DNA from: Geobacteraceae bacterium
GTDB taxonomy: Bacteria; Desulfobacterota; Desulfuromonadia; Geobacterales; Geobacteraceae
Assembly: GCA_025356035.1 (NCBI GenBank)
Contig: JANXYN010000187.1
Span: 1 to 33,074 of the forward strand
DNA: 33,074 nucleotides
Direction: 5' to 3'
The stretch's first letter is position 1; every line of letters begins with the position of its first letter. A program made the translations under genes and the position numbers. Positions 830 to 9,883 of this stretch are shown one piece after another. Below the pieces are notes generated by a model. It saw only the letters and a list, made by a program, of their open reading frames with translations, did not search any database and was not told the DNA's origin.

Positions 830-1003
830 TAGACCATAAATCTCGCAGATTCCGACAAGTTAGCGACCGGCAACTCACCGTCCCTGGTAAACGCGCATTG
901 GAGACTGAACGCAGCATCCTGAATTGCGCGAGGAAGCGTTTGTTTTTCGGCTGGCGCCGTATGCCGTAAGGTTGTGACCCAAGGTGGAATAAAGGAAACA
1001 ACA

Positions 1004-3571
1004 ATGTTTAAGAAGCCGAATGAAATTGAGGCGCAGCTGGAACAGTGTAATCGGAAATTACAAGCGTGTAATGCGCGTATCCAGGATCTCATGACGAAGG
1101 GTCCGGACGGCAACCTGATAGTGGATATGAACAGAAAAATACTTTTTGCCAACCCCGCGGCCGCCACCATTTTTGGCTGCAAAACGAATGAGCTCCTGGA
1201 CAAACAGTTTGACTTCCTTTTCGAGCCGGACAAAACAACCGAGCTGAAGCTGAGGTCTCGGGACGGTAAAGCCATTGTAGTGGAGGCATGGGCGATAGAA
1301 ACAGGGAGAAATGCAAATAAAGCATTCTTTATAGCCCTGCACGACATCAGCGAACGCAAAAAAAACGAGCAGGAGCTGCAAAAGCTCTACAGGGCGGTGC
1401 TGCAGAGTCCAAGCCTTGTCATAATTACCGATGCCAGCGGCAACTTTGAATTCGTCAACCCAAAATTCACGGAGGTGACCGGCTACACCCTGGCGGAGAT
1501 TGCCGGGAAAAATCCGCGGATTCTGAGGTCCGGCAAGACGCCGCCGGAAGTGTACAAGGAGCTATGGGAGACTATCCTCGCCGGCAGGGAATGGCATGGG
1601 GAAATGGTCAACAGAAAGAAGAACGGTGAGCTCTACTGGGAGTATGCCGCCATTTCGCCGATCAAGGATATTGACGGTGAGATCACCAGCTTCATCGCGG
1701 TAACGGAGGAGATCACCGCCCGCAAGGAGGCGGAGGAAGCGCTCCGGGAATCGGAGAACAAGTTCTCCAAGGCTTTCCAAGCGACGCCGAGCGGCCTCGT
1801 CATCTCCTCCCTGGCAAACGGGGTATACAAAGAGGCCAACGAGGCCTTCGAACGGTCGATGGGCTACAGGCGAGACGAGTTGATCGGCCATTCTTCTCTG
1901 GAGCTCAACATTTGGCAGAACCAGGAAGACCGAACCTATGTGATCCGGATGTTGGCGGAAGGAAAGAAGGTGCGTGATCTGGAAATCGGCTTCAGGAGCA
2001 AATCGGGGAGCATTCTCATCTGCAGCTATTCGGCGGAGATTATTGAAATCGGCGCGGAACAATGTCTGTTGAGCCTGTTGAACGATATCACCGCCCGCAA
2101 AAAGGCGGAAGAAGCGCTCCGCAAATCCGAGAAGAAGTTTTTAACTATATTCCATGCTGTTCCCGCCATACTTGGGATTACTACCCTGGCGGAAGGGAGA
2201 TTCGTTGATGTCAATGAAAGATGTGTGCGGGGCCTGGGGTATCAACGTAATGAAGTGATCGGCCGTACCACGCTGGAACTTGGAATATGGGAAAGTCAGG
2301 CGGACCGTGACAGGGCAATGCGGGTGCTAAGAGAGCGAGGAACGGTATGTGACATTGAAATTTACCTAAAAGGCAAAACCGGCGAGGCCTTCATAGGTTT
2401 GCTGTCGGCGGAATTTATTGAAATTGATGGTGAACAGCACATACTCAGCATGATTAACGACATCACCGAGCGCAAGCGGGCGGAAGAAGCGCTGCGCTGG
2501 CGCACTTCCGAGCTTGAAGCGGTTTTCAGAGCCTTTCCCGATAGTTACTTCTGGGTCGACGCCGAGGAGAGGATTATCGACTACAAGGCAGGAGCCATAG
2601 CGGACCTGTATGCACCACCGGAGGTATTCTTGGGGAAACGGATGCAGGAAGTGCTGCCGCCCGATGTGGGTGTGCAAATGCACGCGGCCGTTCAACAAGT
2701 CCTCACGACGGGCGTCCCGGCCGCCTTGGAATACTGGCTGCCGATAAGTGAGGTAAAACAGGTCTTTGAGGCGCGATTGCTGCTTCTCCCCGGAGACCAG
2801 GTATTCTGTGTCGTACGCAATATCACCCCCCGCAAACAGGCCGAGGATGAGATCGAGCGGCTGAACACCGACCTAGCGACGCGGGCAGCCGAACTTGAGG
2901 CCGCCAACGCGGAGCTGGAGGCATTCAATTACACGGTAGCCCACGATCTACGACAGCCATTGAACGTTATCAGCAGCTACTGCCAGATAATCAAGGAACT
3001 ATGCAGTAATAATCTTGATGAGCAGTGCAAGGGTTATCTCCAAGAGACCTACGACGCCACACTGGGTATGAACCGGCTGATTGAGGCCCTACTCAATTTC
3101 TCACGCATGGGCCACGTCGAGCCGCGCCTGGATATGGTCGATCTCTGCGCACTGGCGCATGAGGTGGCAGCGGAGCTGAAACTGACCGAGCCTGAGCGGC
3201 AGGTAGATTTTCGGATCGACGCCGGAATTGCGGCCAATGCCGATGCAAACCTGATGCGGGTGGTCCTGGACAACCTCCTCGGCAATGCCTGGAAGTACAC
3301 CGGCATACGGAAGGAGGCTGTCATCGAGTTCGGCGCGACAGAGATCGACGGGAAGCCAGTATATTTCGTCCGGGATAACGGAGCCGGATTCGACATGGCG
3401 GACGCGGACAAGCTCTTTGTTCCATTCCAACGCCTCCCAGGCGCCGAAGCATTCAGAGGTTTCGGCATCGGCCTGGCCACGGTGGAGCGGATCGTCCGGC
3501 GCCACGGCGGGCGGGCATGGGCCGAGGGAGCGCCGGGGAAGGGAGCGACTGTATATTTCACGTTAACGTGA
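1004..3571 (+). CDS. Multi-PAS sensor histidine kinase (soluble, five PAS domains)
   Basis: An 855-residue sensor kinase with no membrane segment, so probably a cytoplasmic sensor. The ATG at 1004 is preferred over the in-frame GTG at 974 because AAAGGAA lies 6 bases before it. There is a short coiled coil, then five PAS units (about residues 30-115, 120-245, 250-375, 378-500 and 505-625), each ending in a DIT/DIS-(A/E)RK linker. The transmitter follows. The H-box AHDLRQPL places the phospho-acceptor at His647, the N-box NLLGNAWKYT starts at 757, the G1 box DNGAGFD starts at 791, and the G2 box GIGLATVERI is present. All catalytic motifs look intact. The third and fourth PAS domains are close copies. 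The ligand is unknown. It heads a tightly packed signalling operon and has no receiver of its own, so its target is probably encoded downstream. Confidence 0.9.
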   Translation: MFKKPNEIEAQLEQCNRKLQACNARIQDLMTKGPDGNLIVDMNRKILFANPAAATIFGCKTNELLDKQFDFLFEPDKTTELKLRSRDGKAIVVEAWAIETGRNANKAFFIALHDISERKKNEQELQKLYRAVLQSPSLVIITDASGNFEFVNPKFTEVTGYTLAEIAGKNPRILRSGKTPPEVYKELWETILAGREWHGEMVNRKKNGELYWEYAAISPIKDIDGEITSFIAVTEEITARKEAEEALRESENKFSKAFQATPSGLVISSLANGVYKEANEAFERSMGYRRDELIGHSSLELNIWQNQEDRTYVIRMLAEGKKVRDLEIGFRSKSGSILICSYSAEIIEIGAEQCLLSLLNDITARKKAEEALRKSEKKFLTIFHAVPAILGITTLAEGRFVDVNERCVRGLGYQRNEVIGRTTLELGIWESQADRDRAMRVLRERGTVCDIEIYLKGKTGEAFIGLLSAEFIEIDGEQHILSMINDITERKRAEEALRWRTSELEAVFRAFPDSYFWVDAEERIIDYKAGAIADLYAPPEVFLGKRMQEVLPPDVGVQMHAAVQQVLTTGVPAALEYWLPISEVKQVFEARLLLLPGDQVFCVVRNITPRKQAEDEIERLNTDLATRAAELEAANAELEAFNYTVAHDLRQPLNVISSYCQIIKELCSNNLDEQCKGYLQETYDATLGMNRLIEALLNFSRMGHVEPRLDMVDLCALAHEVAAELKLTEPERQVDFRIDAGIAANADANLMRVVLDNLLGNAWKYTGIRKEAVIEFGATEIDGKPVYFVRDNGAGFDMADADKLFVPFQRLPGAEAFRGFGIGLATVERIVRRHGGRAWAEGAPGKGATVYFTLT

Positions 3572-3611
3572 CGGTCTTCGCCGGCGGCAGCAATGAAAGG
3601 AGTATTTAACC

Positions 3612-4226
3612 ATGGTACACCCTCTTCCAACAATCTCTCTCGGGTTCACTGCGCAGCAGTTCCCGCCAGGAGTTCATATCTGCCAGATCTTTGGTGATGA
3701 TGACGAGCGCCAGGAAGCCGTGCTGAAGTTCCTTCTGAGCGGGCTTCAATCGGGAGAGCGCACCAGTTGTTTTTCCGAGCGGATTGACGAAAAAATCCTC
3801 GCGGAATTCCTTGGTAGACATGGCATTTCATACATTGAGGTCAGAGATACCGGGGCACTCACGCTGGCTGGAACAGTGGAGATCTACTTTCAAAACAATC
3901 GGTTCGATCCTGAACGGATGCTTGCCTTTCTCCGCAAATTTCATGAAGATTCTGTGATCCAGGGATATCCTGCGGCCAGAGTCATCGGTGAGATGACACA
4001 AGACATTCAATATATGCCGGGAGGAGGCCGTTTACTCGAATATGAAGCGAAAGTCAGCATGCTCCTGCGAGAACACCCGGTTACCACGGTTTGTCAGTAT
4101 GATGCGCGCTTGTTTGACGGGGCCATGATTATGGATATCCTGAAAGTTCATCCGTATATGGTGGTTAGAGGCTCGGTGGTTAATAACCCATTTTTCATTA
4201 CTCCGGAAGAATTTCTGGCCAGCTGA
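3612..4226 (+). CDS. Stand-alone MEDS-domain (DcmR-type) sensor protein
   Basis: A 204-residue soluble protein matching the MEDS domain (methanogen/methylotroph DcmR sensory domain) along its length. Family-like features are the opening GVHICQIFGDDDERQEAVLKF, the SGLQSGERTSCF segment, the R-V-IGEM turn in the middle and the VCQYDARLFDG stretch near the end. MEDS domains are thought to sense small molecules and usually sit beside kinase or transcription-output domains. Here the domain is alone, 40 bp after one PAS kinase and 28 bp before another, so it probably supplies a signal to the next kinase. GAAAGGAG (3595-3602) precedes the ATG by 9 bases. No membrane segment or catalytic motif is visible. 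The ligand is unknown. Confidence 0.75.
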   Translation: MVHPLPTISLGFTAQQFPPGVHICQIFGDDDERQEAVLKFLLSGLQSGERTSCFSERIDEKILAEFLGRHGISYIEVRDTGALTLAGTVEIYFQNNRFDPERMLAFLRKFHEDSVIQGYPAARVIGEMTQDIQYMPGGGRLLEYEAKVSMLLREHPVTTVCQYDARLFDGAMIMDILKVHPYMVVRGSVVNNPFFITPEEFLAS

Positions 4227-4254
4227 AATCAGAAACCTTATAAGGTAGACGTCT

Positions 4255-5892
4255 ATGCAAGCGTTAAGCGCTCCAGTACTCGGGCAGCTATTGATCATGC
4301 AAGGGATTTTGGGCACCCTGCCCGACGAGCAGTCGATATTCAGCTTCGTTTGTCGGGGGCTGACCAATATGCCGGGTGTCGCTGCGGTGGATTTTTCAGA
4401 TCAACCTGAGGAAACCACGGATGACTCGATTGTTCGGTTCCTAATGGTGATCGGCAATTCCCGGCGACTGGTGCTGTCGATAAAGGTTTATGACCCATCG
4501 GCTTTCGCGCCGTATAAAGATTTCCTGACAAACTTTTGTTTTATATTGACGGTTATTTTGGAGGAACGCAATCAACGTCGCCTGATCGAATTAGATCAGG
4601 CTCGACTTGAGCAGCGGGTCGAGGAACGGACCAAGGAGCTGCAAGACAGCGAGGCACGGCTGAAAAAAGCTCAGGAAATCGCTCATCTCGGCAGTTGGGA
4701 GTTTGACGTTGTCAACAACGTTCTCTTCTGGTCTGATGAAGTATTCAGGATTCTCGGCATGCAACCCCAGGAATTCGCCGCAACCTATGACGCATTTCAT
4801 CAAGTTGTGCACCCTGACGATCGCATGGCGGTTGATACTGCGTATTCAGACTCGCTGCTCTATGGCAGGGATACCTACGAGATCGAACACAGGGTCGTGC
4901 GGAAAGCTACCGGAGAAATACGGTACGTCCATGAGCGATGTGAGCATATCAGGGACGAAACCGGCAGGATCATCCGATCTGTAGGGATGATACATGACAT
5001 CACGGAGCGCAAGCGTGCGGAAGATACGCTGCAAAAATTGAATGACGAGCTGGAAAAACGAGTTGCGGAGCGGACGGAGGAACTGGAAGAGAGCCGCGTC
5101 CAGCTGGAGACGCAGAATAAGGAATTGCGTGATACTTATCGGGAACTGGAACTGGCAGCCGCTGCGCGCATCTGGACGATTGAACAACTCCGGGAAAAGG
5201 ACCATATAATGATTCAGCAGGGCCGCATGGCGGCCATGGGAGAGATGCTTGGCAACATCGCCCACCAGTGGCGCCAGCCATTGAACATCCTGGGGTTAAT
5301 GGTTCAGGACTTGGGGTTTTCTCGAGAATGCGGGGAGTTAAGCAAGGAATTCCTGGACGGCAAGATCGACAAGATGATGGAAATCATCCTACACCTGTCG
5401 CAGACGATCGACGATTTCCGAAATTTAGCCACTCCGGACAAGGAAATGAGCCGGTTCGGGGTGGATCAGGTCATCGTGAAAACGATATCCATGGTCGAGG
5501 AGAGTTTCCGGAGCCTGCACATTTCCATCGACATCAGCACCAGCGACGATCCGCAGATCAACGGCTACCCTCACGAATACGCTCAGGTGCTCCTCAACAT
5601 TCTGATGAATGCACGGGACGCATTCTCTGAGCGGGGCGTGGCCGATGCACGGATAATGGTGCGTTCATGGGTGGACAGCGGCAGGGCTGTGGTCACCATA
5701 ACCGATAATGCCGGCGGCGTTGATGCCGAGATTCTGGACAAAATTTTTGAGCCCTACTTCACCACCAAGGAGCAGGGGAAAGGGACCGGTGTCGGCCTGT
5801 TCATGTCAAAAAACATCATTGAGAAAAACATGGGGGGGCATCTCACCATCCGCAATACCGGCGACGGCGCCGAATTCAGGATAGAGGTCTGA
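4255..5892 (+). CDS. PAS sensor histidine kinase with GAF-like N-terminus
   Basis: A 545-residue soluble kinase. Residues 1-110 are weakly GAF-like. A coiled coil (RLEQRVEERTKELQDSEARL) leads to one PAS domain (about 125-245) of the GSWEFD / VHPDDR type with a DITERKRAED exit. A second long coiled coil (250-310) precedes the transmitter. The H-box IAHQWRQPLN gives His337. The N-box NILMNARDAF, the G1 box DNAGGVD and the G2 box GTGVGLFMSKNIIE are present, with FEPYFTTK between them. The HQWRQPL type differs from the HDLRQPL type of the first kinase, so the two are not recent duplicates. The next gene, a single-domain receiver, starts one base after its stop, which makes that receiver its likely partner. 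The start is ATG with AAGG (4241-4244) upstream. Confidence 0.88.
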   Translation: MQALSAPVLGQLLIMQGILGTLPDEQSIFSFVCRGLTNMPGVAAVDFSDQPEETTDDSIVRFLMVIGNSRRLVLSIKVYDPSAFAPYKDFLTNFCFILTVILEERNQRRLIELDQARLEQRVEERTKELQDSEARLKKAQEIAHLGSWEFDVVNNVLFWSDEVFRILGMQPQEFAATYDAFHQVVHPDDRMAVDTAYSDSLLYGRDTYEIEHRVVRKATGEIRYVHERCEHIRDETGRIIRSVGMIHDITERKRAEDTLQKLNDELEKRVAERTEELEESRVQLETQNKELRDTYRELELAAAARIWTIEQLREKDHIMIQQGRMAAMGEMLGNIAHQWRQPLNILGLMVQDLGFSRECGELSKEFLDGKIDKMMEIILHLSQTIDDFRNLATPDKEMSRFGVDQVIVKTISMVEESFRSLHISIDISTSDDPQINGYPHEYAQVLLNILMNARDAFSERGVADARIMVRSWVDSGRAVVTITDNAGGVDAEILDKIFEPYFTTKEQGKGTGVGLFMSKNIIEKNMGGHLTIRNTGDGAEFRIEV

Positions 5893-5893
5893 G

Positions 5894-6334
5894 ATGGAAC
5901 TAATGCCGAGCTTGAGAAGCGCGCCTTCGATATTGATAGTAGAAGATGACGGGGCGACTTGCAAGATGCTCTGTGTTGTAATCCAGAGAAAATTCCCGGA
6001 TTTAACTATCTACTGCGCCGAGAACGGTAGTATGGGCGTGGATCTCTTCAAAGAGCATATGCCGGAGATCATCATCACCGACATCAACATGCCGGTGATG
6101 AACGGCATTGAGATGGCCGGCCAGATCAAATCGATAAACTCCGGTGCCATGTTCATCGTGATGACCGCTTACAGCAACAAAGACTATTTACAAGCGTTCA
6201 GCGAAATCGGTTTCTGTGAATACTTGCTGAAACCGATCCAATTAACGAAACTGTTCGCTGCCATTGAAAAGTGTAGCGCCGAAATACCGACGAATGGCAA
6301 TAATTTCAGTGTGAGGCATGAAGGGTCAGAGTAG
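5894..6334 (+). CDS. Single-domain response regulator (CheY-like receiver)
   Basis: A 146-residue protein that is essentially one receiver domain. The acidic pair is in ILIVEDDG, the phospho-acceptor Asp63 is in IIITDINMPVMNG, the conserved Thr is in FIVMTAYS, and the lysine is in YLLKPI. There is no output domain, only a polar tail of about 20 residues. The ATG comes one base after the TGA of the preceding kinase, indicating translational coupling and a cognate pair. Such stand-alone receivers act by binding partner proteins or as phosphate shuttles, so it may connect the PAS kinases to the downstream receiver fusions. This role is inferred. Confidence 0.88.
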   Translation: MELMPSLRSAPSILIVEDDGATCKMLCVVIQRKFPDLTIYCAENGSMGVDLFKEHMPEIIITDINMPVMNGIEMAGQIKSINSGAMFIVMTAYSNKDYLQAFSEIGFCEYLLKPIQLTKLFAAIEKCSAEIPTNGNNFSVRHEGSE

Positions 6335-6379
6335 CGGACGGAGCTTCAACCTGAGCTTGAGGTAGCGGAGGTATACACC

Positions 6380-7474
6380 ATGAAGATCCTGATAGCGGAA
6401 GATGAACCTGCTTTTCGCCAGCTCCTGGAAGAGATTCTTCCCCGATGGGGGTACGAGGTGGTCGTCACCAATGACGGCAACGAAGCCTGGCAGGTCCTCC
6501 GTTCCGACGACGCCCCGCGGCTGACCATTCTCGACTGGCTGATGCCGGGCATGGACGGTCTGGAATTATGCCGGAAGATCAGGGAAGAGGCGACGAAGTC
6601 TTACACCTACATCATTCTCCTGACTTCACAACAGAAGGACGAAGACCTGGTCGCCGGCATGGCTGCCGGAGCGGACGACTATATAACCAAACCGCTAAAG
6701 ACTAACGAACTGAGGGTTCGACTCAACGCCGGAAGGCGGATAGTCGAGCTGCAGAACGAGCTCGCGGCTCACGCCGCCGAACTGGAGGCAGTCAACAGGG
6801 ACCTTGAGTCGTTCAGCTACACCGTATCCAACAACCTGCTCAACTCCCTGTTGGCAATCGGCCGTAACGCCAGAAATATAGAGGATTTTATGTGTAGTAA
6901 AGAGAACGAGCAGTGCCAAAAATATGCTTTAGGGATATATGACAAAACCAAACAGATGGCAGAGCTCATCGGCATCATGCATGAATTCTTCAGGCCCATG
7001 AGGATTGATCTTCATCGGGAAACCTTAGACCTGAGCAAAATGGCTGATAAAACGGCAGAGAAACTCCGGAAATCGAACCCCGATCGCCGAGTAACGTTCC
7101 GAATCGCCGAGGGGATCAAGGTTTATGGGGACAGGAGCTTGCTGCAATTGGCTCTGGAAAACCTCCTGGGCAACGCCTGGAAGCATACCGACAAGCGCGA
7201 AGAGGCGGTCATCGAATTCGGCGTGACTGAAGTCGGGGGGCAGCCGGCTTGTTACGTTCGGGATAACGGAGTTGGGTTCGATATGGCGCATGCTGACAAA
7301 CTTTTTAAGCCATTCCGACCACTGCCCGGTACGGAGGAATTCGCAACGGATGGCATCGGCCTGGCTACGGTGGAGAGGATCATTCGGCGCCATGGCAGTA
7401 AGGTCTGGGCGGAGGGGGAACCGGGCAAGGGGGCAACCTTCTATTTTACGTTGAGCGGGGACAGAACCAGCTGA
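6380..7474 (+). CDS. Receiver fused to a histidine-kinase-like module lacking the phospho-acceptor His
   Basis: A 364-residue protein. Residues 1-120 form a complete receiver (ILIAEDEP, Asp52 in TILDWLMPGMDG, LLTSQQ, DDYITKPL). A short helical linker leads to a transmitter-like half that aligns along its length with the C-terminus of the five-PAS kinase at 1004-3571. The ATP-binding motifs are kept: NLLGNAWKHT, DNGVGFD and GIGLATVERI. The H-box is not. Where the other kinase has YTVAHDLRQPL, this one has YTVSNNLLNSL, so the histidine is Asn151 and the DLRQP residues are changed too. It therefore should not autophosphorylate on histidine in the usual way. It could be a receiver-gated ATPase, a scaffold or a phosphatase-like partner. 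GGAGG before ATG 6380 supports the start. It is expressed with its neighbours in one run of genes. Confidence 0.85.
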   Translation: MKILIAEDEPAFRQLLEEILPRWGYEVVVTNDGNEAWQVLRSDDAPRLTILDWLMPGMDGLELCRKIREEATKSYTYIILLTSQQKDEDLVAGMAAGADDYITKPLKTNELRVRLNAGRRIVELQNELAAHAAELEAVNRDLESFSYTVSNNLLNSLLAIGRNARNIEDFMCSKENEQCQKYALGIYDKTKQMAELIGIMHEFFRPMRIDLHRETLDLSKMADKTAEKLRKSNPDRRVTFRIAEGIKVYGDRSLLQLALENLLGNAWKHTDKREEAVIEFGVTEVGGQPACYVRDNGVGFDMAHADKLFKPFRPLPGTEEFATDGIGLATVERIIRRHGSKVWAEGEPGKGATFYFTLSGDRTS

Positions 7475-7511
7475 CGTAACTGCCCAGAATGCTGCTGACT
7501 GCAGGTTGACA

Positions 7512-7623
7512 GACTGAAGGCTGAAGACTGTCAGTAAAAACTCCTGCACGATCACCCCGACTAAATGTATTTGAACAGGGCGAGGAAGTAGCACGAATAT
7601 TTCGAATAACCCTCAGTCTTCAG
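7512..7623. repeat. Heptamer-type repeats and inverted repeat upstream of the DAC-like gene
   Basis: Three degenerate 7-mers lie in tandem at 7512-7532 (GACTGAA, GGCTGAA, GACTGTC). The core CTGAAGACTG (7521-7530) is repeated inverted as CAGTCTTCAG at 7614-7623. This is the largest gap inside the signalling island (182 bp) and could hold a second promoter or an mRNA structure. No clear -35/-10 pair was found. Confidence 0.5.
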
Positions 7624-7656
7624 TTTCAACACCCGAGTAGTTACGGAGACGTTCCA

Positions 7657-8940
7657 ATGCCTATCAAGCACTTCGAATCAATAAGAAAGATGGTGGAAGA
7701 CTTTTTTGGCGGGGCAACCTTTACTCTTGTCGGGGAAGAAATAACTCCCTGCGAGGTTGAACAAAGCGGCAACTACCTGGTAAAGAGAATAACGACAGAA
7801 CTGGGCACCCATCACTTTGTTCTGCAGAGAAACGGCCTGCCGTTCACCGATACTGAAAGAAAGATCGCTGATGAGGTAGCGGAAGCCATGCACATCTTTA
7901 TTGCAAATCGAAAAATAGGTGGCGACATCATCTACTATCGCACGGCTCTGCTCACCTCGCTCCTGGATGTTTCCGTATCCCGCTATCTACGGTTTAACCG
8001 GCATCGTGCCTTCTGGTCAATACAAAAACTGTTGCAGATACTGAAAAATCTTTCGTACCAGAGGTATGAAGGGACACCCGCTACGAGTGGGTTCATCGTG
8101 TACCGCAATAAGATCGAGGAGTTCAATGTGGCATGCAGTACGTCAGACTGCCTCAGACATGATTTCAATCCCGGCATCAATATCTCCGCCAATTTCTTCA
8201 AAAGCCCCTTGACATATCGGCTCGTGAGCGGTCAGGGAACGTATTACGCGTGTAACATCAACCTGCAGACAACCGGAATGGTAAAATTCATGAACTATGG
8301 GAACCGGGACGCCGTAGATCGTCTCAGCCTCCGCGATAACCTGACCCTCGTCAACAAAGCCGGAGAAGGGGCATTTGCCGTAAGTATTACACCTTCCTCC
8401 GAATTGGAAGTGATGACCTGCCCGGATAGCATTTTCGTCTGGAGAAAAGGAACCTGGAGCCTATTCGATCCGAATATTTTCCGAAATTTTCTGTCGGGAC
8501 AGCTGGATGCAAAAGAAACGGAAGCGTTAATATTGACCGTATATTCACTGTCAAAGCTCAGGCTCGGGACGATTGTCCTCATAGCCGACGAGAACATATT
8601 GGTTTCAGGAGATTTGCAAAAAGGGACGGCTGGCGGAAAGGGTATCATCAGCCAATTGATCATCAGCTTTTTCAAGGGAAAAACGATCTCCAGCCTGAAA
8701 CATTCGGGAGAACTGATCAGTATCCTGTCTTCGGACGGGATGACGTTGTTCAACAAAGACGGTGAGCTTGTTGATACGGGCATCATCATCAACACCTGCA
8801 CGACTCTCGGGCTGGTGACGGGGGGAGGACGGACAACGGCGGCAACAGCGGTATCATTGTTCGGCAAGGTTATAAAGGTATCCGAAGACGGGCCGATAGA
8901 GCTATATGAAGGTGGGAAGTGCGTTTACAGATTTGGCTGA
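7657..8940 (+). CDS. Protein with divergent DAC (diadenylate cyclase-like) C-terminal domain
   Basis: A 427-residue soluble protein. The last 140 residues resemble the DAC/DisA_N nucleotidyltransferase fold. LSKLRLGTIVLIADE matches its early strand. SSDGMTLF (Asp360-Gly361) stands where DACs have DGA. TGGGRTTAATAV (Arg392) stands where they have (G)xRHR/TAA, followed by the usual KVIKVSEDGPIELYEGGK end. The catalytic motifs are thus partly altered: DGA reads DGM, and the His after the conserved Arg is Thr. It may make c-di-AMP, make another nucleotide, or only bind one. The first 290 residues look like a sensor region. Residues 45-85 are faintly GAF-like and the rest is not recognised. The ATG has a weak CGGAGA upstream. 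The next gene follows at once. The DAC call rests on motif reading only. Confidence 0.65.
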   Translation: MPIKHFESIRKMVEDFFGGATFTLVGEEITPCEVEQSGNYLVKRITTELGTHHFVLQRNGLPFTDTERKIADEVAEAMHIFIANRKIGGDIIYYRTALLTSLLDVSVSRYLRFNRHRAFWSIQKLLQILKNLSYQRYEGTPATSGFIVYRNKIEEFNVACSTSDCLRHDFNPGINISANFFKSPLTYRLVSGQGTYYACNINLQTTGMVKFMNYGNRDAVDRLSLRDNLTLVNKAGEGAFAVSITPSSELEVMTCPDSIFVWRKGTWSLFDPNIFRNFLSGQLDAKETEALILTVYSLSKLRLGTIVLIADENILVSGDLQKGTAGGKGIISQLIISFFKGKTISSLKHSGELISILSSDGMTLFNKDGELVDTGIIINTCTTLGLVTGGGRTTAATAVSLFGKVIKVSEDGPIELYEGGKCVYRFG

Positions 8941-8968
8941 TGACCAAATAGGAATGAAGGGGAAAGCC

Positions 8969-9883
8969 ATGAGGATACTTATAGCGGAAGATGACCCGAG
9001 TTTTCGGCGGCTCCTGGCAGAAACGCTGGCTATATGGGGATACGATGTCGTTGTCGCCGACAATGGCTATTCAGCATTGCAGATTCTGCAATCTGAGGAC
9101 CCTCCGAGACTTGCCATGCTTGACTGGATGATGCCGGGGATGGAGGGGGTGGAAGTTTGCCGGAAAGTCAGGCAAAAGATGGTTGAACCATACACGTACA
9201 TGGTTCTCCTGACTTCCCAGCAGCGTGACGAAGATCTCGTTATCGGCATGGAAGCCGGCGCGGATGACTACATTACCAAACCATTCAAGCATAATGAGTT
9301 GCGGCTGCGGCTGCGGGCGGGAAGGCGCATTATCGAGCTGCAGAATGAACTGATTGAGGCCCGAGATACCTTTCGGACAAAAGCCTCCCACGATTCCCTC
9401 ACCGGCCTCTGGAACCATGAGGAAATCCTCCGAATCCTGGCGCAGGAACTTTCCAGGGCCGAGCGGGAAGAAAAAAGCGCGGGGGTGATCATGGCGGACA
9501 TCGACTTCTTCAAGAAGATTAATGATACGTATGGCCATTTGGCGGGTGATGTGGTGCTCCGTTCGGCAGCCGGCAAGATGCGCTCCTTGATGCGTACCTA
9601 CGATTGTATCGGCCGCTATGGCGGTGAGGAGTTTCTGGTTGTCCTTCCCGAATGCAACCTGGAGTGCGCTGCCGCTTTTGCCGAACGACTGCGGCTCTGC
9701 GTGAGCAGCGACAGTATCGACACCCCGGAAGGGATGATACCGGTCACCATCAGTCTCGGGGTAGCGGCGAGCAGCAAGGATAAGAAGAAAGACGTTAATT
9801 CTCTCATCAAGACAGCGGACGAAGCCCTTTACCGGGCAAAAGAAAGCGGCCGCAATCGCGTGGCAGTTGCGCTAGCCAGTTAG
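8969..9883 (+). CDS. Response regulator diguanylate cyclase (receiver-GGDEF, PleD-like output)
   Basis: A 304-residue receiver-GGDEF fusion predicted to make c-di-GMP when phosphorylated. The receiver has Asp52 in AMLDWMMPGMEG and Lys in YITKPF, and is a close paralogue of the receiver at 6380. In the GGDEF domain, DIDFFKKINDTYGHLAGD carries the metal-binding and guanine-recognition residues. The signature is GGEEF (218-222) and the inhibitory I-site is RTYD (209-212), so product feedback is expected. The Asp in GHLAGD marks a canonical diguanylate cyclase rather than a cGAMP-making Hypr enzyme, which has Ser there. The ATG at 8969 is chosen over upstream in-frame codons at 8906 and 8954: AAGGGGAA sits 4 bases before it and it aligns with the start of the paralogue. 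It closes the signalling island and is its clearest output. Confidence 0.9.
   Translation: MRILIAEDDPSFRRLLAETLAIWGYDVVVADNGYSALQILQSEDPPRLAMLDWMMPGMEGVEVCRKVRQKMVEPYTYMVLLTSQQRDEDLVIGMEAGADDYITKPFKHNELRLRLRAGRRIIELQNELIEARDTFRTKASHDSLTGLWNHEEILRILAQELSRAEREEKSAGVIMADIDFFKKINDTYGHLAGDVVLRSAAGKMRSLMRTYDCIGRYGGEEFLVVLPECNLECAAAFAERLRLCVSSDSIDTPEGMIPVTISLGVAASSKDKKKDVNSLIKTADEALYRAKESGRNRVAVALAS

Follow-up and report, generated by a model that had tools for sequence, protein, structure and literature searches.

The gene at positions 7657..8940 on the forward strand of the window (the whole stretch of 33,074 nucleotides analysed) encodes a protein of 427 amino acids with an ATG start, which we read as a non-canonical nucleotide sensor built from tandem diadenylate cyclase (DAC) domains rather than as a canonical diadenylate cyclase, with a probability of about one half. 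The protein is likely to consist of a GAF-like cap (residues 1-85), a degenerate DAC-like domain (DAC1, residues 112-270) and a conserved DAC-like domain (DAC2, residues 283-427). Both motifs of functional cyclases are altered in the window protein, DGA being replaced by DGM and (T)RHR by GGRTT. The preliminary description had suggested that such changes could alter the product of the domain or turn it into a nucleotide receptor, and both readings are reasonable. DACs are thought to act as symmetric pairs of identical RHR-bearing domains that make c-di-AMP. Two fused and unequal DAC-like domains with a different, strictly conserved phosphate site, occurring in a widespread group of proteins, would offer a natural test of whether DAC folds can serve as receptors or as makers of other nucleotides.

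Fold and conserved motifs of DAC2

The C-terminal domain DAC2 (residues 283-427; 8503..8937, forward strand) was delimited by structure match, profile and invariant columns, and the assignment of a DAC fold to this domain is firm. As proposed in the preliminary description, the predicted fold was compared with known DAC structures. The AlphaFold model, built from 29 aligned homologues (mean pLDDT 81, pTM 0.85), found CdaA/DacA, DisA and DacM-type chains as its sole matches in Foldseek, with a probability of 1.00, and VIA-align gave Z 10.8-13.8 to CdaA, DacM, DisA and CdaS over residues about 280-427. Two loops in this model, residues 324-328 and residues 384-389, the latter lying just N-terminal of GGGR, have pLDDT below 50. 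A merged profile of DAC2 and its relatives matched the canonical DACs at E=2.7e-8. By both structure and profile, the order of DAC elements that had been read in the C-terminus is thus that of a real DAC homologue.

Single-sequence profiles barely detect this kinship, and it is the structure that settles the DAC fold. The window protein has no Pfam DAC (PF02457) match at E<1 and no CdaA_N match, and a PDB sequence search with the single protein gave no match. A single-sequence HMM comparison with the TIGR00159 CdaA model gave E=0.0048 over residues 283-344, with 16.2 bits against a cut-off of 188.8 bits. Pfam DAC matches 20 of the 29 family members (best E=0.002) and one member locus reaches E=2e-5; the curated cut-off of 27 bits is not reached, the best family member seen (G040) scoring 25.3 bits.

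Twenty-nine of the 145 columns of DAC2 are invariant. Among 77 distinct full-length homologues the invariant positions include D360, G361, G389, G390, G391, R392, T393, S409, D411 and G412, and motifs invariant in so many distinct homologues are not due to chance. The DGM motif (residues 360-362; 8734..8742, forward strand), present in the ORF translation as described earlier, replaces DGA. Its Asp and Gly occur in 77 of 77 homologues and position 362 is occupied by Met (43), Leu (26) or Ile (8), never by Ala. The GGGRTT motif (residues 389-394; 8821..8838, forward strand) replaces G-T-R-H-R in the register of CdaA and DacZ, and was likewise found in the translation within GGGRTTAATA at residues 389-398, with R392-T-T at the described place; T394 is present in 74/77 homologues. 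The retention of DG and of the first Arg, which the same description had noted in the one protein, was found to extend to all 77 homologues.

Alignment with canonical sequences places G-G-R-T-T-A-A of DAC2 over G-T-R-H-R-A-A, so that Thr is changed to Gly, the first Arg is kept, and both the His and the second Arg are changed to Thr. In S. aureus DacA, D176 and G177 touch the ribose and T207 touches the phosphate (PMC6368335); the position of this phosphate-contacting Thr is taken by Gly391 in DAC2. In the DacZ-like cyclases compared, the second Arg may be replaced by Ala, Ile or His, but the His of RHR is kept, as it is in the canonical sets compared; what stands out in DAC2 is therefore the loss of Thr and His. 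In the distant relatives described below, the His position is variable (T,R,R,L,Q,K,K).

A further conserved feature is the K407-V-S409 stretch (8875..8883, forward strand), which carries a new invariant Lys two residues N-terminal of the conserved Ser and, from this spacing, probably on the same strand face. Lys407 was found in all 77 family members, in 7/7 relatives of the GGGR set and in 2/2 of the GARS set (86/86 in total), and its equivalent in 0/38 CdaA, DacZ-like, DACNV and DACNH sequences. From the sequence pattern we infer that the Gly-rich turn and Lys407 may form a re-built phosphate site.

The N-terminal part of the protein

The region before DAC2 has no Pfam match. Its first part, residues 1-85 (7657..7911, forward strand), was assigned by VIA-align as a GAF-like half domain with moderate confidence, residues 1-90 matching many GAF domains at Z 5-7.8. 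With three invariant columns out of 85, this cap has the fewest of the three domains.

The following part, residues about 112-270 (7990..8466, forward strand), was identified as DAC1 from profiles and from a model of the N-terminal part only. For this model residues 1-282 were folded alone with 21 homologues including distant relatives; the mean pLDDT is 83 and the five models are alike. Residues 112-269 of this model were found by VIA-align to match DAC chains exclusively, the top 13 entries, which align over 120-136 residues at Z 8.1-10.7, being DacM, DisA, CdaM and CdaA/DacA. The remaining rows (Z <=7.8) concern residues 1-91 and are mostly GAF domains. Foldseek returned no match below E=0.001 for the N-terminal model, and independent support for DAC1 was therefore needed. 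The DAC1 profile, made from the distant relatives or merged with the family, matched the DacZ-like profile at E 0.0029-0.0052 over 136-147 columns in full-domain register, and none of 60 column-shuffled controls was as good; against a CdaA plus DacZ profile the values were E 0.0044-0.011. As a negative control for the profile comparison, the profile of the GAF-like part did not rise above the null level. The family's own DAC1 alone gave no significant match to DAC2 (9/60 shuffles as good), so the sequence signal of DAC1 comes mainly from the distant relatives. The assignment of DAC1 as a DAC-like domain is well supported, and because residues about 112-270 match only DAC structures, with weak support from profiles, the protein is probably tandem. 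This second, upstream DAC-like domain had been overlooked in the preliminary description, which was drawn from sequence only.

Most family members keep DG and an Arg in DAC1, with D191 in 71/77, G192 in 75/77 and R226, in the register of RHR, in 70/77. The window protein has S191 and its near relatives in the subclade have Asn. The loss of this Asp (residues 190-193, nucleotides 8224-8235) is restricted to the receiver-GGDEF subclade described below, with the exception of one Ala elsewhere.

Distribution, neighbourhood and relatives

The family gene is present in 79 of the 195 genomes of the class, and the 77 distinct homologues all belong to Desulfuromonadia where they could be placed. When 345 genomes sampled from the phylum were searched, the full-length family did not turn up outside the class, three distant relatives excepted. 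In genus g13 of the same family (L149-L166, L169-L178), the tandem-DAC gene was absent from every genome seen, and one or two DACNV-DAC genes were present.

In the window, seven signalling genes run on one strand from 974 to 9883 in the order PAS histidine kinase, MEDS protein, PAS histidine kinase, receiver, receiver-HATPase, DAC-like and receiver-GGDEF. The receiver-HATPase gene (6380..7474, forward strand) has Response_reg and HATPase_c domains and no recognisable HisKA domain. The downstream receiver-GGDEF gene (8906..9883, forward strand; Response_reg and GGDEF) has its likely true start at ATG 8969, 28 bases 3' of the stop of the DAC-like gene. Its product retains both the GGEEF signature and the Asp within the GH-x-x-GD stretch, and by comparison with PleD we expect it to be an ordinary diguanylate cyclase.

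This arrangement recurs in the subclade defined by an identity of 69% or more (the window, L072, L073, L074 and L054). An HATPase_c gene, with either a receiver or HisKA, lies upstream of the DAC-like gene in 5/5 of these loci, and a same-strand receiver gene follows in 5/5. It is a receiver-GGDEF gene in four of the five; in L072 the contig ends within the downstream gene, past its receiver part. The adjacency to a receiver-GGDEF gene, which had been called unusual, is therefore real and is a trait of the subclade, the other family loci having no conserved neighbour: across 76 loci the neighbours are not conserved, the window's subclade excepted. A GGDEF link for the family as a whole was considered and rejected, because a receiver-GGDEF gene is found directly 3' only in the subclade; at one further locus a GGDEF gene lies at a distance of two genes. 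A location of the window's family in defence islands was also rejected, since a blastp comparison of a dozen defence proteins with the neighbours at 76 loci gave matches at two only (L125, L132). No match was found to PADLOC models, and none to Rfam riboswitches in the window or in the four other subclade loci. Elsewhere in the same genome two canonical DACs are found, and the CdaA proteins of this genome match CdaA_N.

A wider group of relatives, which we define in this analysis as the GGGR/GARS tandem-DAC group, was found by profile searches. A profile of four distant relatives (the GGGR set, with no family member included) finds the window protein at E=3.3e-12, and one of two further relatives (the GARS set) finds it at E=1.1e-7. 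Compared by profile, the family and the GGGR set align over 381 columns (E=6.4e-22), which indicates that the whole architecture is held in common. The window protein carries the features of the group, namely the GG/GA-R motif, IKVSxDG and an upstream DAC1 with the YEG turn. The DAC-domain tree contains a branch (support 99/97) that separates the family, GGGR and GARS sequences from the CdaA, DacZ-like, DACNV and DACNH sequences; as the tool warns of long branches, the grouping leans equally on the shared motif and on the full-length profile match. The GGGR/GARS proteins resemble the window protein in length class, domain order, the GGR or GAR motif and IKVSxDG with its Lys. They differ in that DGA is kept (DGA or DGT in GARS) and in that they are often mobile or found in defence contexts.

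The GGGR proteins were found on plasmids of Alphaproteobacteria and of one Clostridia species, annotated as 'hypothetical protein'; plasmid searches with the window protein and with a GARS protein gave nothing. The defence contexts amount to a handful of loci and are those of the relatives, not of the window's family. One relative follows a patatin and a SMODS nucleotidyltransferase of CBASS (L189, 8965-12378), one is on an Agrobacterium vitis plasmid, where it adjoins a complete type II CBASS (L230, 6971-12771), two lie within type I restriction operons (L190, 5369-15246; L233, 1202-9644) and one, on a viral contig, adjoins a KAP NTPase gene (L221). In L188 (3240-6911) the genes for a TIR protein and an unknown protein come first and that of the relative third. 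The relatives in CBASS, TIR and type I restriction surroundings are uncharacterised or 'hypothetical' genes. In a single lineage (L234-L237) a GGGR-type gene is flanked by STAS/SpoIIE-HATPase signalling genes and apparent RNA polymerase subunit genes.

The unknown protein of L188 (4216-5430) is 404 residues long and without a Pfam match; its gene lies between that of the TIR protein and the GARS-type DAC-like gene, which it overlaps by four bases. These three genes are possibly a new defence operon.

Comparison with described DACs sets the family apart from each of them. Canonical CdaA, DisA, DacM and CdaS (PF02457) share with the window protein the fold of residues 283-427, the motif order, DG, the first Arg and the conserved Ser. 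The window protein differs from them in DGM for DGA, GGRTT for TRHR, the extra Lys407, SEDG for SEETG and the second DAC-like domain in tandem, and in having no membrane or DNA-binding part. The DacZ-like cyclases of Desulfobacterota (L208-L218), which the distant-relative profile reaches at E 4e-6 to 1e-3, have a similar strand, DG and RH register and share a YEGxP / REGxP turn with DAC1; unlike the window protein they retain DGA and G(S/A)RH, and each contains only one DAC domain. DACNV-DAC (PF21751) and DACNH-DAC (PF21750) proteins also have an N-terminal sensor-like region followed by a divergent DAC and an SQDG or SEDG turn, and DACNH lacks RHR as well (RYN). However, DACNV keeps GTRHRAA, Lys407 occurs in neither, and both fall on separate tree branches. 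The window protein has no match to PF21751 or PF21750 at E<1. Membership in DACNV, suggested by the SQDG turn that both have and by an N-terminal stretch of similar appearance, was rejected as the profile match reached E=0.034 only and the tree separates the two.

The DS-2 model NF053872 (an equivalog, 630 bits) identifies a DS-2 DAC in E. coli (L191:7858-9603, NZ_OZ547155.1) that has DGT for DGA and GSRYNS for GTRHR, so that the canonical RHR is absent. The window protein has no match to this model at E<5, and CBASS neighbours are expected for DS-2, whereas those of the window gene are signalling genes. The predicted catalytic residues of the DS-2 anti-phage DAC are needed for defence (PMC13092281).

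Candidate functions of the probable tandem protein

The contacts to the ribose and that of the first Arg are kept in DAC2, the rest of the triphosphate site is lost and a second, degenerate DAC is present; an asymmetric nucleotide-binding pseudo-dimer fits this combination best. In known DACs two domains are placed head to head with one ATP each (PMC8573169), and DAC1 and DAC2 are probably the two halves of such a pair fused into one chain. DAC2 would still bind a nucleotide, most likely ATP or the c-di-AMP that the two canonical DACs of the cell would make available as a ligand, and would not itself make c-di-AMP by the usual route. Its nucleotide occupancy may be reported via the other domains. 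In the window's subclade the partners would be the adjoining histidine-kinase-type protein and the receiver-GGDEF diguanylate cyclase, through which an adenine-nucleotide signal could be turned into a c-di-GMP output. Such coupling would point to adenine-nucleotide and c-di-GMP signalling being directly connected.

Some features speak against this sensor reading. Asp360, which canonical cyclases need, is kept in every homologue and would not obviously be required in a pure receptor; the triphosphate contacts that were lost could be made good by Lys407 and Arg392, allowing catalysis; and the sequence evidence for DAC1 is weak, with E about 0.003-0.01. A second reading, possible and held with less confidence, is that the protein is an active enzyme, a nucleotidyl cyclase of a non-canonical type. 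The triphosphate would be held in a new manner by Arg392, Lys407 and the Gly-rich turn, and the product of the asymmetric pair would be c-di-AMP, a dinucleotide that is mixed or linear, or some other compound. The invariance of Asp360-Gly361, Arg392 and Ser409, the possible compensation by Lys407 and the DG and Arg kept in DAC1 of most family members agree with such an enzyme, as do the position of relatives beside CBASS operons and the need of the RHR-less DS-2 DAC for its predicted catalytic residues. However, the phosphate site no longer has its Thr, His and second Arg, and changes of this kind are severe in known DACs. Mutation of RHR to AAA in M. tuberculosis DisA abolished both ATP binding and activity (PMC3328451), and both DGA and RHR are essential in CdaS (PMC4568413). 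The variable His position among the distant relatives and the loss of the DAC1 Asp in the window's subclade also argue against catalysis. Since Asp360 is never lost, Lys407 may compensate and DS-2 needs its predicted catalytic residues, the enzyme keeps a substantial share of our expectation beside the preferred receptor reading.

For the GGGR/GARS proteins as a whole we tentatively propose, at less than even odds, an undescribed class of tandem DACs. Each would be a fused, asymmetric pseudo-dimer whose re-built phosphate site contains the Gly-rich turn, Arg392 and Lys407, and it would either produce or sense a nucleotide signal distinct from canonical c-di-AMP. Some may serve CBASS, restriction or TIR defence and others, as here, two-component and c-di-GMP signalling, with the window's family as the Desulfuromonadia branch. 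Such a class would bear on why DAC genes occur beside anti-phage systems, given that an RHR-less DS-2 DAC is needed for defence.

An improbable alternative is that the protein is a structural or allosteric scaffold, a pseudo-enzyme that binds no ligand and regulates its partners, for example canonical CdaA or the receiver-GGDEF protein, purely through protein contacts. The loss of catalytic residues would suit such a role, and canonical DAC domains are regulated by protein contacts, as CdaA is with GlmM (PMC8573169, PMC6368335). However, the most conserved positions of DAC2 are the pocket motifs (DG, GGGRT and KVS), which would be needless without a ligand.

Of the 58 near genomes 37 carry the gene, most of them as a single copy, and its frame is nearly always open, with no internal stops. 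Its whole-gene dN/dS is 0.19-0.24. Between the window and three near relatives, dN/dS is 0.09-0.19 for residues 283-427 and 0.20-0.26 for residues 1-282, purifying selection being strongest in DAC2 in all three pairs measured. Judged by conservation across the homologues, DGM and GGGRTT are fixed traits of the family rather than signs of decay. A decaying or mis-annotated gene with drifted motifs, for which the Ser in place of the DAC1 Asp and a frame-disrupted stretch in the Geotalea toluenoxydans copy might be cited, is rejected in view of the invariant motifs and the low dN/dS, together with the open frames of the near genomes.

The Geotalea toluenoxydans copy (L088:6001-7278) has seven TGA codons in the frame-disrupted stretch of its DAC2. 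Recoding of TGA was rejected, as the in-frame TGAs all fall within one out-of-frame stretch with frameshifts on both sides; the disruption is a draft error or a pseudogene.
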